Assembly (NCBI RefSeq): GCF_021029445.1
Contig: NZ_CP072610.1
Coordinates: 682,001 to 746,000, forward strand
Direction of reading: 5' to 3'
DNA: 64,000 bases
Source of the DNA: Pseudomonas wenzhouensis
Lineage (GTDB): Bacteria; Pseudomonadota; Gammaproteobacteria; Pseudomonadales; Pseudomonadaceae
Shown here in pieces: positions 2 to 58,563 of this stretch (position 1 is its first letter; the number at the start of each line of letters is the position of its first letter). The translations under genes were made by a program, and so were the position numbers. The notes beneath the pieces were generated by a model. It made no database searches and was not told the DNA's origin. It saw nothing but the letters and a program-made list of their open reading frames with translations.

Positions 2-724
2 GCCGAATTTCTCAGTGTGGCGCAGGAGCTCAATGTTGACATCGCCTTCCAGCGCGACTCGGTGTTCCGTCGCAACCGCCGCCTGGCCGTGTTCGACATG
101 GATTCGACGCTGATCGAGGCCGAGGTGATCGACGAGCTGGCCAAGGCGGCCGGCGTTGGCGAACAGGTGGCCGAGATTACCGAGCGCGCCATGCGCGGTG
201 AGCTGGACTTTCGCGCCAGCTTCAAGGAGCGCCTGGGCTTGCTGCAGGGGCTGTCGGAAGACGTACTGGAAGAGATTGGCGCGTCCCTGCGTCTGACCGA
301 AGGCGCCGAGGTGCTGTTCGCCGAACTCAAGCGCCTGGGCTACAAGACCGCGATCCTCTCTGGTGGCTTCACCTATTTCGCCAGGCAGCTGCAGGCCAAG
401 CTGGGCATCGACTACGTGTTCGCCAACGAACTGCAGATCGAGAACGGCAAGGTCACCGGGGTGGCCGTCGAGCCCATCGTCGATGCCCAGCGCAAGGCCG
501 ATCTGTTGCGCGAGCTGGCGCAGAAGGAGGGCTTGCAGCTGGAGCAGACCATCGCCGTTGGTGATGGCGCCAACGACCTGCCGATGCTTGGCCTGGCCGG
601 TCTCGGTGTGGCCTTCCGGGCCAAGCCGCTGGTCAAGCAATCGGCCAAGCAGGCGATCTCCACCCTGGGGCTGGATGGCATTCTTTATCTGCTGGGTTTT
701 CGCGACCGTGAGGGGCAGGAATAA
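2..724 (+). CDS. serB: Phosphoserine phosphatase SerB (5' truncated by window edge)
   Basis: Hydrolyses O-phospho-L-serine to L-serine, the last step of serine synthesis, in the cytoplasm. The reading frame is already open at base 2, so the N-terminal (ACT-like) part lies outside the window. A GTG at 17 is internal, not a real start. The HAD-phosphatase core is complete: motif I FDMDSTLI with the nucleophile Asp, motif II Ser in LSGGFTYFA, and motif III GDGANDLPML. The C-terminus is a normal SerB end. The gene converges on fimX; the gap between them holds the MITE-like element at 767-918. Identification is secure from the motifs and from the fimX neighbourhood. Confidence 0.96.
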   Translation, partial: AEFLSVAQELNVDIAFQRDSVFRRNRRLAVFDMDSTLIEAEVIDELAKAAGVGEQVAEITERAMRGELDFRASFKERLGLLQGLSEDVLEEIGASLRLTEGAEVLFAELKRLGYKTAILSGGFTYFARQLQAKLGIDYVFANELQIENGKVTGVAVEPIVDAQRKADLLRELAQKEGLQLEQTIAVGDGANDLPMLGLAGLGVAFRAKPLVKQSAKQAISTLGLDGILYLLGFRDREGQE

Positions 725-754
725 GCACCGGCGCCGTCTCGGATATAAAAAGTC

Positions 755-930
755 ACCTGTTCAGGTTAATGCCAGCCAGTTAAGCCTCGACGCAGCCAAT
801 GTGTAGGAGCGGCGCCCCGCCGCGAACCAGGGTGACGTGCCATCGAAAAACTTCGCCCCGAGGCGGGGCTCCTACGAAAAGCCGCTTTGGCCACGGCCAC
901 CTTATCGGATCGGCATTAACCTGTTCAGGT
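755..930. mobile_element. IS4-type MITE (767-918) with 12-bp target duplication, inserted in a terminator
   Basis: The element spans 767-918 (152 bp) between the directly repeated 12-mers ACCTGTTCAGGT at 755-766 and 919-930. Its ends are inverted: left TAATGCCAGCCAGTTAAG, right (read inward on the minus strand) TAATGCCGATCCGATAAGG. Both resemble the IS4 terminus as I recall it (TAATGCCGATCAGTTAAG), and IS4 makes 11-13 bp duplications. There is no ORF inside. The interior is a facing pair of Pseudomonas REP-like sequences at 803-826 and 852-875. The target 12-mer is itself a dyad. Without the element it sits in a hairpin with a flanking A-run, a plausible bidirectional terminator for serB and fimX. 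Confidence 0.72.
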
Positions 931-950
931 GGCTTCTTCGTCGGCGGGAT

Positions 951-3020
951 TTATTCGTCGCCGGCCGAGAAGTCGTAGTCCATCGACTGGCTTGGGCCCT
1001 GCAGGTAGTAACCCTGAATGAAGTTGACGCCGGCCTGCCATAGCGTGGCCAGCACGCTGGCACTTTCGACGAAGGGTACGATGGTCAGCTTGGCCTGGGC
1101 ATGCAGGCTGCTGAGCAGGGTTTTCAGCGCTTCCTGGTTCTCTGCATTGCTCAGATCCTGGGAGAACGAGCCGTCGACTTTGACGAAGTCCACGTGCAGG
1201 TGCTTGAGCGTGTTGAACGGGTTCAGTGCGCAGCCGAACTGGCTCAGAGCGACCTTGCAATGCAGCTGCGCCAACCCCTGGGTCAATGCCTTGGCCTGTT
1301 TCAGGTAGGCGATGGCGTCCGGTTCGCTGAACTGGAACACCAGTGAGTCCGACGGCAGCCGTGCAGCCTTGAGTGCCACGCTGAGCCAGGGCAGCAGGGT
1401 CTGATCCTGCAGACTGGCGCTGGACAGGTGCACGAACAGACGGGTGTGATGCCCTTTGGCGCGGTGGTCAGCCAGCAGTTTGATCGAATTGAGGATCACC
1501 CAGCGGTCGATCTTCTCGCCGAGTCCTGCCTCCTTGGCGGCGGCGAGGAAGTCCTTCGGCGAGACCTCCTGCCCCTGCGGGCTGAGCAGGCGCAACAGGA
1601 CTTCGTAGTGTTCGTTGGCGTCGCCGCGCAGGCTGATGATCGGCTGGAACAGCAGGCGGAAGCTGTTGTTCTCCAGTGCCTGCTGCACCATGGCCAGCAG
1701 GTTGCCGCGGTTGGCGGCGGCGGCCAGCTCGTCGGCCGGGTTGAACAGCTTGAGCGCATTGCCGTCGTTGAGTTCATCAGCGCAGCGGAGTGCGCGGTCG
1801 ATGACTTCCTGGGCCTTGGCGGTCTTCTCGCTGAGCCCCGCGACACCAATCGACAGCGTGGTCTGCACGGTGCGTCCGCTGACGTCGAACAGATGGCTTT
1901 CGACTTTCTTCAGCAGGCTCTGCAGGCTGGCCTGGCAATGCTCGGGTGTCTGGCCTGGCAGCAGGGCGGTGAATACGTCGTCACCGAAACGCGCCAACTG
2001 ACTGTCGGCGGGGAAGTGGTCGCGCAACAGTCCTGCCAGATCGGTCAGCAGCAGGTCGATGCTGGCCAGGCCGATTTCGCCCTGCAGGGCGGCGTAGCGG
2101 TCGACGCGGATATATGCCAGGGTCGAGGGTTGGCCGCTGTTGATGGCGCGCTCGGCTGCGCTGTCCATCAGCTCGAGGAAATGACTGCGGTTGAACAGGC
2201 CGGTGACCAGGTCCTGACTACTGATCTCGCGCAGCTTTTCTTCCAGTTCGGCATTGGAGGTTTCCGCGCGGATCACCACCTGGATGCAGGGTTCGCCGTC
2301 ATAGGTGGCCGGAGAGAAACTCATTTGCGCGGCGAAGCTGCTGCCGTCGGCGCGTACGCCCTGGCAATTGAGCTCAGCATTACCTTCGGCGCTCTGGTAG
2401 TTCTTCAAAAAATCCTTGAACGCTGCATGATCGCTGCTGGCGATCAGGTCGATCATCGGCATGCCTTCGAGCTCTTCGCTATCTTCGTAGCGGAACAGCT
2501 CAAGGTAGGCGCGGTTGGCGTAAATATGCATGCCGTCATGCACGTAGGTGATGGCGTCCACCGAGCTTTCCAGCAGCAACTGGCAGCGCTTTTCCGCCTC
2601 GCGCAGGGCCACTTCAGCCGCGCGCCGGGCACGCCGCTCTTCCAGATTGCTCAGCTCACGTTTGGCCACCAACACCAGGCGTTCGTCCTCGCCCTGTGGC
2701 AATGCATCCTGGGCGCCGAACAACAGCGCTTCGGTAATGATTTCCGGGTCGTTGTCATCGACCAGCTGAATGACGGGAATATCCTTGGCCTGCCGGCGGA
2801 TGGCGTTGATAGCCTCGCCAGGTTCCAGGTACTCGCTGCTCGGGGCGCAGATCAAAAGATCCCAGGTGTGCTGCAGGGTCTCGGCGAGATCCTCGCTGGA
2901 GGTCAGCCGGTGCACACGGGTGGCATGCCCGGCGTTGCGGAACAGACTGACCAGGCGCTCAGCTTCGTTCTGCGAATCTTCGAGAAGCAGCAGGCGGATG
3001 GTTTTTTTTTCGATGGCCAT
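951..3020 (-). CDS. fimX: FimX: c-di-GMP-binding REC-PAS-GGDEF-EAL protein for type IV pilus/twitching
   Basis: Polar regulator of type IV pilus assembly in P. aeruginosa, acting as a high-affinity c-di-GMP receptor rather than an active enzyme. The 689 residues show a receiver-like domain (about 9-128), a PAS domain (about 145-260), a degenerate GGDEF domain reading GDDVF, and a degenerate EAL domain reading EVL in HYEVLLRL near residue 475. These match the known degeneracy of FimX. The start ATG at 3020 is followed by nine consecutive A (codons 4-7, Glu-Lys-Lys-Thr). The gene lies 61 bp downstream of a PilZ-domain gene on the same strand and is probably co-transcribed with it. Length and motifs fit the P. 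aeruginosa protein closely. Confidence 0.93.
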   Translation of the reverse strand: MAIEKKTIRLLLLEDSQNEAERLVSLFRNAGHATRVHRLTSSEDLAETLQHTWDLLICAPSSEYLEPGEAINAIRRQAKDIPVIQLVDDNDPEIITEALLFGAQDALPQGEDERLVLVAKRELSNLEERRARRAAEVALREAEKRCQLLLESSVDAITYVHDGMHIYANRAYLELFRYEDSEELEGMPMIDLIASSDHAAFKDFLKNYQSAEGNAELNCQGVRADGSSFAAQMSFSPATYDGEPCIQVVIRAETSNAELEEKLREISSQDLVTGLFNRSHFLELMDSAAERAINSGQPSTLAYIRVDRYAALQGEIGLASIDLLLTDLAGLLRDHFPADSQLARFGDDVFTALLPGQTPEHCQASLQSLLKKVESHLFDVSGRTVQTTLSIGVAGLSEKTAKAQEVIDRALRCADELNDGNALKLFNPADELAAAANRGNLLAMVQQALENNSFRLLFQPIISLRGDANEHYEVLLRLLSPQGQEVSPKDFLAAAKEAGLGEKIDRWVILNSIKLLADHRAKGHHTRLFVHLSSASLQDQTLLPWLSVALKAARLPSDSLVFQFSEPDAIAYLKQAKALTQGLAQLHCKVALSQFGCALNPFNTLKHLHVDFVKVDGSFSQDLSNAENQEALKTLLSSLHAQAKLTIVPFVESASVLATLWQAGVNFIQGYYLQGPSQSMDYDFSAGDE

Positions 3021-29234: not shown

Positions 29235-29321
29235 TGGTGCCCAGGAGAAGACTCGAACTTCCACGGCCGTTAAGCCACTGATACCTGAAACCAGCGCGTC
29301 TACCAATTCCGCCACCTGGGC
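29235..29321 (-). tRNA. tRNA-Leu(CAG), copy 2 of the transcript
   Basis: 87-nt class II tRNA with encoded CCA. Acceptor GCCCAGG pairs with CCTGGGC; the anticodon stem CTGGT/ATCAG closes loop TTCAGGT with anticodon CAG; the long variable arm and GTTCGAGTC T-arm are present. It is identical to the gene at 29405-29491 and probably lies on the same transcript. Confidence 0.96.
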
Positions 29322-29404: not shown

Positions 29405-29491
29405 TGGTGCCCAGGAGAAGACTCGAACTTCCACGGCCGTTAAGCCACTGATACCTGAAACCAGCGCGTCTACCAATTCCGCCACCTGGGC
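29405..29491 (-). tRNA. tRNA-Leu(CAG), copy 1 of the transcript
   Basis: Same 87-nt sequence as the gene at 29235-29321, promoter-proximal. CUG is the main leucine codon in GC-rich Pseudomonas genes, so a duplicated CAG-anticodon tRNA is consistent with codon demand. Confidence 0.96.
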
Positions 29492-57089: not shown

Positions 57090-57758
57090 GTCGGCTACGG
57101 CGTGGTGCGGCTGTTCCCCGAGCAGCGCTGGAAGCCCTTTTACCGCTGGCAGCCTTTGTGGGTGACGATCCAGGCGCTGCTGTTCCAGTACGCCGTGGCC
57201 ATCCAGCACCTGCGCCTGGACAAGCTGATCAAGGGGCGCATCAGCCAGGACGAGGTAAAACCGCTGGCGCGTCAGTTCGGCGCCAAGCTGGCACGGCAGT
57301 GGGGCAAGGATTATCTGGTTTTTCCGCTGCTGGCGCTGCTGCTTGGCGCCAATGCCCTGGCCGTGCTGGCGGGCAACCTGGTGGCCAATCTACTGCGTAA
57401 CCTGTGGACCTTTCTGGTGATCTTCTGCGGCCATTTCACCGAGAAGGCAGCGGTGTTTGCACCCGAAGTATTGCAAGGGGAAACCCGTGGCCATTGGTAC
57501 CTGCGCCGACTGCGTGGTTCCAGCAACCTGTCCGGTGGGCCGCTGCTGCATATTCTGACCGGCAACCTCTGCCATCAGATCGAGCATCACCTGTTTCCGG
57601 ATCTGCCGGCGCGGCGCTATGCCGCGTTGGCACGTGAGGTGCGCCTGATCGCTGAGCGTTATGGCCAGCACTACAACAGCGGAACCCTATGGGGACAGTT
57701 CGCGACCGTTCTGCGGCGCATCTGGATCTACCGTTTGCCCACTGCCGGGGTGGCGTGA
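57090..57758 (+). pseudogene. desB: Remnant of desB (fatty acyl-CoA desaturase), N-terminal half deleted
   Basis: Encodes only the C-terminal part of a membrane fatty acid desaturase, from VGYGVVRLFPEQRWKPFYRW to a normal stop. The third histidine box is present (HQIEHHLFPD), but the first two boxes (HxxxH, HxxHH) and the first membrane hairpins are absent, so the di-iron centre cannot form. The frame is otherwise open and well preserved, suggesting a fairly recent deletion joining desC to desB. Confidence 0.85.
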
Positions 57759-57794: not shown

Positions 57795-58011
57795 CCGGCT
57801 TGGGCCGTAATGCTGTTCACATAAGAAATGGTCGGACGCGATGAGTCCTCTCGCCCCTTTGGGGAGAGGGTTAGGGCGGGCCGCGTTCGGAGAGGGGAAA
57901 ACTGGCAGGTTTGCGGTGTTTTCAGCCCTCTCCCCCAGCCCCTCTCCCATAAATGGGAGAGGGGAGCCAAACGTGTGCAACCTTAAGTGAACAGCATTCC
58001 GGCTTGGGCCG
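57795..58011. mobile_element. IS4-type MITE (57808-57998) with 13-bp target duplication, inserted in a terminator
   Basis: The element is 191 bp between direct repeats CCGGCTTGGGCCG at 57795-57807 and 57999-58011. Its ends are inverted: left TAATGCTGTTCACATAAG, right (minus strand) AATGCTGTTCACTTAAG, sharing 12 perfect terminal bases. There is no ORF. The interior carries facing CTCTCCCC/GGGGAGAG-rich arms. Deleting the element and one duplication leaves AAGCCCGGC-TTGG-GCCGGGCTT, a perfect terminator-like hairpin, as in the element at 767-918. The two elements differ in interior and in part of the ends. Confidence 0.75.
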
Positions 58012-58035: not shown

Positions 58036-58563
58036 TCAAACCGTACGGCCGCGCTGCTCGATCAGACGATCGGAGCCGCCTTCGGCCAACTGAACACGTT
58101 GGGCGCCCGGGGTGCGCTCATAGCCGCCTTCGGCCAACTGCACACGCTGAGCTCCGGGAGTACGCTCATAGCCGCCCTCGGCCAGTTGAACACGCTGGGC
58201 ACCCGGGGTGCGCTCATAGCCGCCTTCGGCCAACTGCACGCGCTGAGCACCGGGAGTACGCTCATAGCCGCCCTCGGCCAGTTGAACACGCTGGGCACCC
58301 GGAGTGCGCTCATAGCCGCCTTCAGCCAGCTGAACGCGCTGTGCACCCGGCGTACGCTCATAACCACCTTCTACCAGCTGAACGCGCTGGGCACCGGGGG
58401 TGCGGTCGGCGCCGTCTTCGGCCAGCGGTGCGACGGGTTGCTGTTGGACCTGGCTGTCCTTGGTTTCACCCACCAGAGGGAAGGGGGCGCTGCTAGAGGC
58501 GGCGAATACACTGGTGGTCATCAGGCTCAGGGCCAGGGCTGCAAGGCTAAGTTGAGTTTTCAT
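58036..58563 (-). CDS. Secreted protein made of seven 16-residue tandem repeats
   Basis: 175 residues: signal peptide (MKTQLSLAALALSLMTTSVFA, cleavage near residue 21-22), a 30-residue spacer, then seven repeats with consensus YERTPGAQRVQLAEGG (residues 52-163; the first reads ADRTPGAQRVQLVEGG), and a short tail ending in SDRLIEQRGRTV. Probably periplasmic or extracellular. Small pseudomonad exported proteins with AEGGxDR-type repeats exist, but I know no function. The repeats are exact at protein level while the DNA differs. Both antisense frames are open through the repeat, an artefact of the 48-bp period. Confidence 0.82.
   Translation of the reverse strand: MKTQLSLAALALSLMTTSVFAASSSAPFPLVGETKDSQVQQQPVAPLAEDGADRTPGAQRVQLVEGGYERTPGAQRVQLAEGGYERTPGAQRVQLAEGGYERTPGAQRVQLAEGGYERTPGAQRVQLAEGGYERTPGAQRVQLAEGGYERTPGAQRVQLAEGGSDRLIEQRGRTV
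58075..58410. repeat. 7 x 48-bp coding tandem repeat with 96-bp super-period
   Basis: Seven 48-bp units encode the 16-residue repeat. Neighbouring units alternate between two synonymous versions (for example GAACACGCTGGGCACCCGG versus CACGCGCTGAGCACCGGGA on the plus strand), so the array seems to have grown partly by duplicating 96-bp pairs. Confidence 0.85.

Follow-up and report, generated by a model that had tools for sequence, protein, structure and literature searches.

Several mobile elements with structured landing sites resemble the one reported here. Group IIC introns also land on the intrinsic-terminator motif, but they move by retrotransposition and have no DDE transposase. The IS4 family is a major family of transposases with IS4 as its type element, and subgroup IS4, as described by De Palmenaer (2008), has ends of the form -AATR--------WTW, a target duplication of 10 to 13 bp, and a YREK motif. 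Strong arm specificity was noted for the subgroup in the same work, and the word "terminator" is absent from its main text as far as that text is accessible. Targeting of the REP axis by the IS4 family is already published: in the available part of Tobes and Pareja (2006), ISRm22 occupies the palindromy axis of S. meliloti REPs in all 10 of the 10 cases tabulated. ISRm22 differs from the elements described here, however, in that its duplication is 6 bp, it belongs to subgroup IS4Sa, and the accessible text discusses REPs and not terminators. Pseudomonas REPs are targets, as here, of ISPsy8, ISPpu9/10, and ISPa11, and ISPsy8 lies at the hairpin axis, but the accessible descriptions place these elements in the IS3 and IS110 families and give ISPsy8 a duplication of 3 bp. 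Finally, the available part of Silby (2009) describes the R0, R2, and IR1_g repeats of Pseudomonas as intergenic inverted repeats with a tail-to-tail bias, whereas the REP pair described below lies inside IS4 ends, with duplications on both sides. In the open literature searched, which leaves most subscription journals outside its coverage, we found no report of terminator-axis targeting by subgroup IS4, and the open literature searched likewise returned no report of IS4-ended REP doublets.

Here, we analyze a 64,000-nucleotide stretch (the window) of the 4.45-Mb genome of Pseudomonas wenzhouensis. At a probability of roughly three in four, we think that the element at 755-930, whose insertion point is the axis of a terminator predicted to be bidirectional, was mobilized by a transposase of subgroup IS4 that takes GC-rich hairpin palindromes as its targets. 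The element (element 1) lies between two convergent genes (Table 1). Its 12-bp target duplication, ACCTGTTCAGGT, is present in two identical copies, each of them a dyad, and its ends read TAATGCCAGCCAGTTAAG and CTTATCGGATCGGCATTA on the plus strand. An earlier note on this DNA had called these ends IS4-like, and the same ends indeed occur on PF13006-bearing IS4 elements of relatives. The note had also named the neighbors serB and fimX; the first name is borne out by TIGR00338, and the second, given by no search, was that reader's own label for a convergent gene encoding a PAS-GGDEF-EAL protein.

Table 1. Positions in the window of the two IS4-ended miniature elements, their target sites, and the neighbors of element 1
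Feature	Position	Strand	Basis
Host left arm of predicted terminator, A-run plus GTC	747..754		Sequence, fold of rejoined site
Element 1 target duplication, left copy ACCTGTTCAGGT, palindrome	755..766		Sequence; axis offset 0.0
Element 1, IS4-ended miniature, 152 bp, non-autonomous	767..918	+	Sequence, genome copies
Element 1 left IS4-type end TAATGCCAGCCAGTTAAG, resembling locus L092 TAATGCCAGTCAGTTAAG	767..784	+	End comparison
Element 1 REP palindrome, half 1 of REP doublet	803..827	+	Matches in own genome
Element 1 REP palindrome, half 2, inverted	852..875	-	Sequence, own-genome matches
Element 1 right IS4-type end, reverse complement TAATGCCGATCCGATAAG, resembling L092 right end	901..918	-	Sequence
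Element 1 target duplication, right copy	919..930		Sequence
Host right arm with T-rich tract GGCTTCTT	931..938		Sequence, fold
serB 3' part, convergent neighbor	17..724	+	TIGR00338, 1.4e-80
PAS-GGDEF-EAL protein gene, convergent neighbor	951..3020	-	Pfam
Element 2 target duplication, left copy CCGGCTTGGGCCG	57795..57807		Sequence, axis score
Element 2, IS4-ended miniature, 191 bp, TGTTCAC-type ends, CCCTCTCCC-type repeat core	57808..57998	+	Sequence, genome copies
Element 2 repeat core, CCCTCTCCC / GGGAGAGGGG palindrome	57927..57965, approximate limits		Sequence
Element 2 target duplication, right copy	57999..58011		Sequence, axis score

The empty site of element 1 was built by script, keeping one copy of the duplication and leaving the element out. 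As the earlier note had foreseen, the rejoined site, AAAAAGTCACCTGTTCAGGTGGCTTCTT, folds as a hairpin bordered by an A-run and, opposite it, a T-rich tract, so that removal of the element restores the predicted bidirectional terminator of the convergent genes. A GC-rich hairpin followed by a T-tract, here interrupted by a C (CTTCTT), is the pattern of an intrinsic terminator; the terminator is thus predicted from sequence and folds. The dyad axis coincides with the center of the duplication (offset, 0.0 bp), and 11 of 14 positions pair. The exact predicted rejoined sequence, which related strains had been expected to carry, was not found in the relatives: the serB gap carries other sequence in the three relatives examined (L122, L124, and L125), and in relative G012 it holds a different, strong bidirectional terminator, as predicted by fold.

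The element had been described as an ORF-less MITE. Its MITE-like nature holds, and its interior proved to be a REP doublet, two GTAGGAGC-type REPs in inverted orientation. The sequence has 53 matches in the 4.45-Mb genome, the majority spanning the REP core only. Such an inverted pair is the mark of a REPIN; we take the core to be REPIN-like and presume that the R0 and R2 repeats are likewise REPINs.

Element 2, toward the far end of the window, is flanked by a perfect 13-bp duplication whose center lies 0.5 bp from the axis of a hairpin, with 10 of 14 positions paired. Both elements thus combine IS4-type terminal inverted repeats with duplications of 12 and 13 bp, and the claim that two of two sites agree is correct within the window. 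Genome-wide it weakens. Searches by similarity and with a degenerate end pattern yielded ten copies with both ends nameable; scoring covers these two-ended copies and leaves out copies with one eroded end (e.g., L005, L006, L033, L035, and L082). Six of the ten are centered within 0.5 bp (elements 1 and 2, L002, L034, L036, and L038). The other four are off axis or lack a duplication: L003 and L070 are off axis, L004 has no duplication, and L032 has a perfect duplication in a terminator-like hairpin but lies 5.5 bp off its axis. Several REP families supply the cores. No source of transposase was found in the same genome, which has 0 matches to PF13006 (Nterm_IS4) and 22 other DDE_Tnp_1 matches. 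Elements 1 and 2 would therefore have been mobilized in trans by an enzyme since lost or supplied from outside.

A full-length IS4-family transposase with matching ends was thus not found in the P. wenzhouensis genome but is present in relatives: of 199 same-genus genomes, 18 carry PF13006. The full-length insertion sequences are about 1.4 kb and have ends like those of element 1 (TAATGCCAGTCAGTTAAG) or element 2 (TAATGCTGTTCACTTAAG). The two proteins tested, from L102 and L099, match PF13006, PF01609, and NF033592, and residues Y307, R310, E314, and K321 of the YREK motif are invariant in 25 sequences. A sequence search of the PDB gave no match; a structural model of a transposase (pLDDT, 82) found Tn5 transposase as its best solved match (E value, 1.3e-10). 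Ends, duplication size, and YREK motif are common to these elements and to subgroup IS4 as far as De Palmenaer (2008) is accessible. PF13006 together with PF01609 marks the relatives here, hairpin axes and terminators are added to the description, and the copies in the window carry no transposase.

Insertion at the axis is shared by the transposase-bearing elements. Thirty loci came from 39 PF13006 matches in the same-genus search, and a scan of named genomes kept 80 of 129 (from Pseudomonas, Xanthomonas, Azotobacter, Reinekea, Marinomonas, Pokkaliibacter, and others), for a total of 110. The site finder required inverted ends and a duplication and did not require a hairpin. Fifty loci passed a filter that demanded a length above 400, no mismatch between the duplication copies, and 15 or more matches among 18 end positions, and removal of four duplicates left 46 distinct sites, 39 with elements of about 1.4 kb and 7 with internally shortened ones. 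Those left out were L105, L114, and L119 (negative-length artifacts), L091, L104, L187, and L207, and the remainder, which lacked paired ends; L091 and L207 each failed by one mismatch in the duplication, and both sites look hairpin-like by eye. The dyad axis lies within 0.5 bp of the duplication center at 44 of the 46 sites and within 1.5 bp at 45 (offset 0 at 31 sites, 0.5 bp at 13, 1.5 at L112, and 15 at L201). Of 13,800 random placements in these loci, 172 had an axis no more than 0.5 bp away and 9 or more of 14 pairs, a background that serves for element 1 as well. Moreover, complementarity between half-sites was 0.764, against 0.452 +/- 0.025 in 2000 shuffles among sites (maximum, 0.538), and therefore the two halves of a site covary. 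Duplications were 10 to 13 bp at 42 of 46 sites, with two of 9 and two of 14. Most of the dyads, here and at the E. coli IS4 sites described below, resemble intrinsic terminators. At the site orthologous to L099, a clear hairpin and T-tract follow the same gene in 6 of the 11 relatives compared (L235-L239 and L245); L242 has a weaker hairpin, L240 was left unaligned, and none has identical letters.

The type element behaves similarly. E. coli IS4 is 52 to 56% identical to one subtype of the relatives. We took 26 of the 60 matches listed among 2739 records, plus the MG1655 copy; this sample is non-random, and its first 16 members were picked for multicopy genomes and varied contexts. The 27 copies occupy 12 distinct sites, 8 of them hairpin-centered within 0.5 bp (glgP, crr-pdxK, bamD, gnsA/cspG, tdk-adhE, glcA, a site by a TerD-family gene, and metK). 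The fumB site is 1.5 bp off axis, and the three non-hairpin sites are nan, which holds the K-12 copy (4 of 14 pairs), paaE (8 of 14), and yicI (8 of 14). MG1655 carries uninterrupted crr-pdxK and bamD sites with letters exactly as predicted. The tdk-adhE terminator has IS4 in both orientations in different strains (L255, L257, and L258) and has thus probably been hit more than once. A Proteus plasmid copy sits between hairpin arms with A- and T-runs, and an IS4 insertion in the pheST attenuator was reportedly described in 1984.

Targets are not restricted to terminators. A strict paired-end MITE pattern occurs in 44 of 398 genomes. Because the search for this long form fixes the core at 105 to 135 bp, other forms may be missed; shorter forms were seen in 18 of the 398, most of them having one REP or a collapsed one and a few having none. 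Outside one genome (G237), the 74 MITEs examined among the matches listed represent 72 distinct sites. Twenty-eight of these are hairpin-centered, 25 of them with A/T arms; 25 duplicate a REP core (e.g., GGGCTTGCCC) without paired A/T arms, and 12 of these 25 are centered within 0.5 bp by the 14-bp score; 19 fall in neither class. G237 has 45 nearly identical MITEs (L332-L376; mean identity, 99.3%), and all 45 duplicate the REP core AGGCTTGCCC or a near variant, again without paired A/T arms. The REP class was assigned from the letters of the duplicated 10 bp and not from the axis score, by which only 3 of the 45 are centered within 0.5 bp; on our reading, the score is low because the outer arms of the REP pair only with a bulge, and the duplicated 10 bp is a small dyad in itself. 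The usual REP flank is missing on one side at L341, L347, L353, and L364. All four relative orientations are represented among the G237 MITEs, which favors independent insertions over one spreading unit; no IS4 transposase was detected in that genome. Thus, the targets take in REP cores, and for these a palindromic core seems to suffice; the A/T arms go with the terminator class. At L261, L269, L292, L295, and E. coli L258, one copy of the duplication is the exact reverse complement of the other or differs from it by an inverted loop (e.g., GGGCTTGCCC / GGGCAAGCCC), which looks like the flipping of one palindrome once the element was in place.

The earlier note had proposed that the element itself recognizes terminator hairpins. 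Insertion at the axis stands and extends to transposase-bearing IS4 elements, but the preference seems to belong to the IS4-subgroup transposases and not to element 1, and it takes in REP cores. Likely, the IS4 enzyme picks its targets by hairpin symmetry. A Tn5-like transposase would act as a symmetric dimer, with its two strand transfers placed to the left and right of the dyad and separated by about one helical turn. The palindrome, or a hairpin extruded from it, would dock in linear or cruciform form so that the axis falls between the active sites. The A/T arms that stand 5 to 7 bases outside the duplication may assist, as the insertion sequence sites nearly always have them.

The same arms sustain the most serious alternative, that the transposase reads a linear consensus only, AAA and TTT arms at a fixed distance, and that terminators are struck because they bear such arms. 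A stands at -5, -6, and -7 in 45, 43, and 44 of the 46 sites, with T-runs likewise 5 to 7 bases outside at nearly all; in 32 of 46 both exact AAA and exact TTT occur there. Arms but no hairpin are seen at L201 and at the E. coli nan site, the commonest in the sample (8 of 27 copies), and the arm specificity noted in the accessible text of De Palmenaer (2008) points the same way. We nevertheless consider this alternative unlikely. In the intergenic parts of the same loci and of the window, an inner dyad accompanies only 6 of 74 AAA-N17-22-TTT stretches (some overlapping), compared with 42 of 46 targets (Fisher, 3e-21), and the REP-core sites lack paired arms.

Insertion might instead be nearly random, with copies at terminator axes surviving as the least harmful since the terminator can still fold. 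Indeed, at 35 of 36 hairpin-centered MITE sites the host arms still pair when either strand is folded. This explanation strikes us as very improbable. In X. arboricola, 10 of the 12 loci of that genome have paired ends, and the ten copies, probably recent because they are 99.97% identical, are already all within 0.5 bp of the axis. Copies of 1.4 kb are centered likewise. Moreover, simulated off-center insertion keeps the arm before the T-tract paired in 14 to 15 of 16 cases on one side and 9 to 12 of 16 on the other, compared with all 16 for centered insertion; a need to remain foldable is thus too weak to explain 44 of 46 sites within 0.5 bp.

We give scarcely any credence to the view that the MITEs are plain REPIN units mobilized by a RAYT (Y1) transposase, their IS4-like ends being incidental, for although the REP-doublet cores fit it, as do MITE-rich genomes without PF13006, the duplications of about 10 to 14 bp, which Y1 enzymes are not known to leave, the 18-bp ends resembling IS4 ends, and the reversed end pattern used as a control (0 of 398 genomes) all speak against it.

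PF13006 was found in none of the nine MITE-rich genomes searched, which suggests that the transposases are transient or lost; PF01609 has no match in G142 and one in G237, in a 199-amino-acid frame. An inverted-repeat core of at least 10 bp is present in 119 of 119 related MITEs tested and in 2 of 450 control stretches. The presence of REP cores in IS4 ends suggests how REP doublets could pass from one carrier to another. More tentatively, the founding IS4 subgroup may consist of shape-reading transposases whose docking sites are extruded hairpins or cruciforms, intrinsic terminators and REPs above all, and which thereby spread while sparing genes. In Pseudomonas their ends might repeatedly have captured REP doublets of different families, and the composite elements might form the apical part of a giant terminator hairpin that can still fold.

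If targeting by hairpin symmetry is true, IS4 could spread while sparing genes, its arm specificity would be explained, and its landing would follow a simple, testable rule. Terminators would then count among the sequence-flexible sites where bacterial transposons are known to land, and they would be a meeting place of transcription readthrough and genome rearrangement.

Other features of the window may be recorded. A fatty-acid desaturase ORF of 218 amino acids (57102-57758) is matched by its profile only from position 86, and perhaps its start lies elsewhere or the gene is truncated. A 48-bp tandem repeat of 7.4 copies (58074-58426) lies within a minus-strand ORF of 175 amino acids that has no Pfam family. 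Finally, an Rfam scan of the window at the gathering threshold returned two tRNAs and nothing else; two neighboring minus-strand tRNA genes, at 29238-29321 and 29408-29491, have equal scores.
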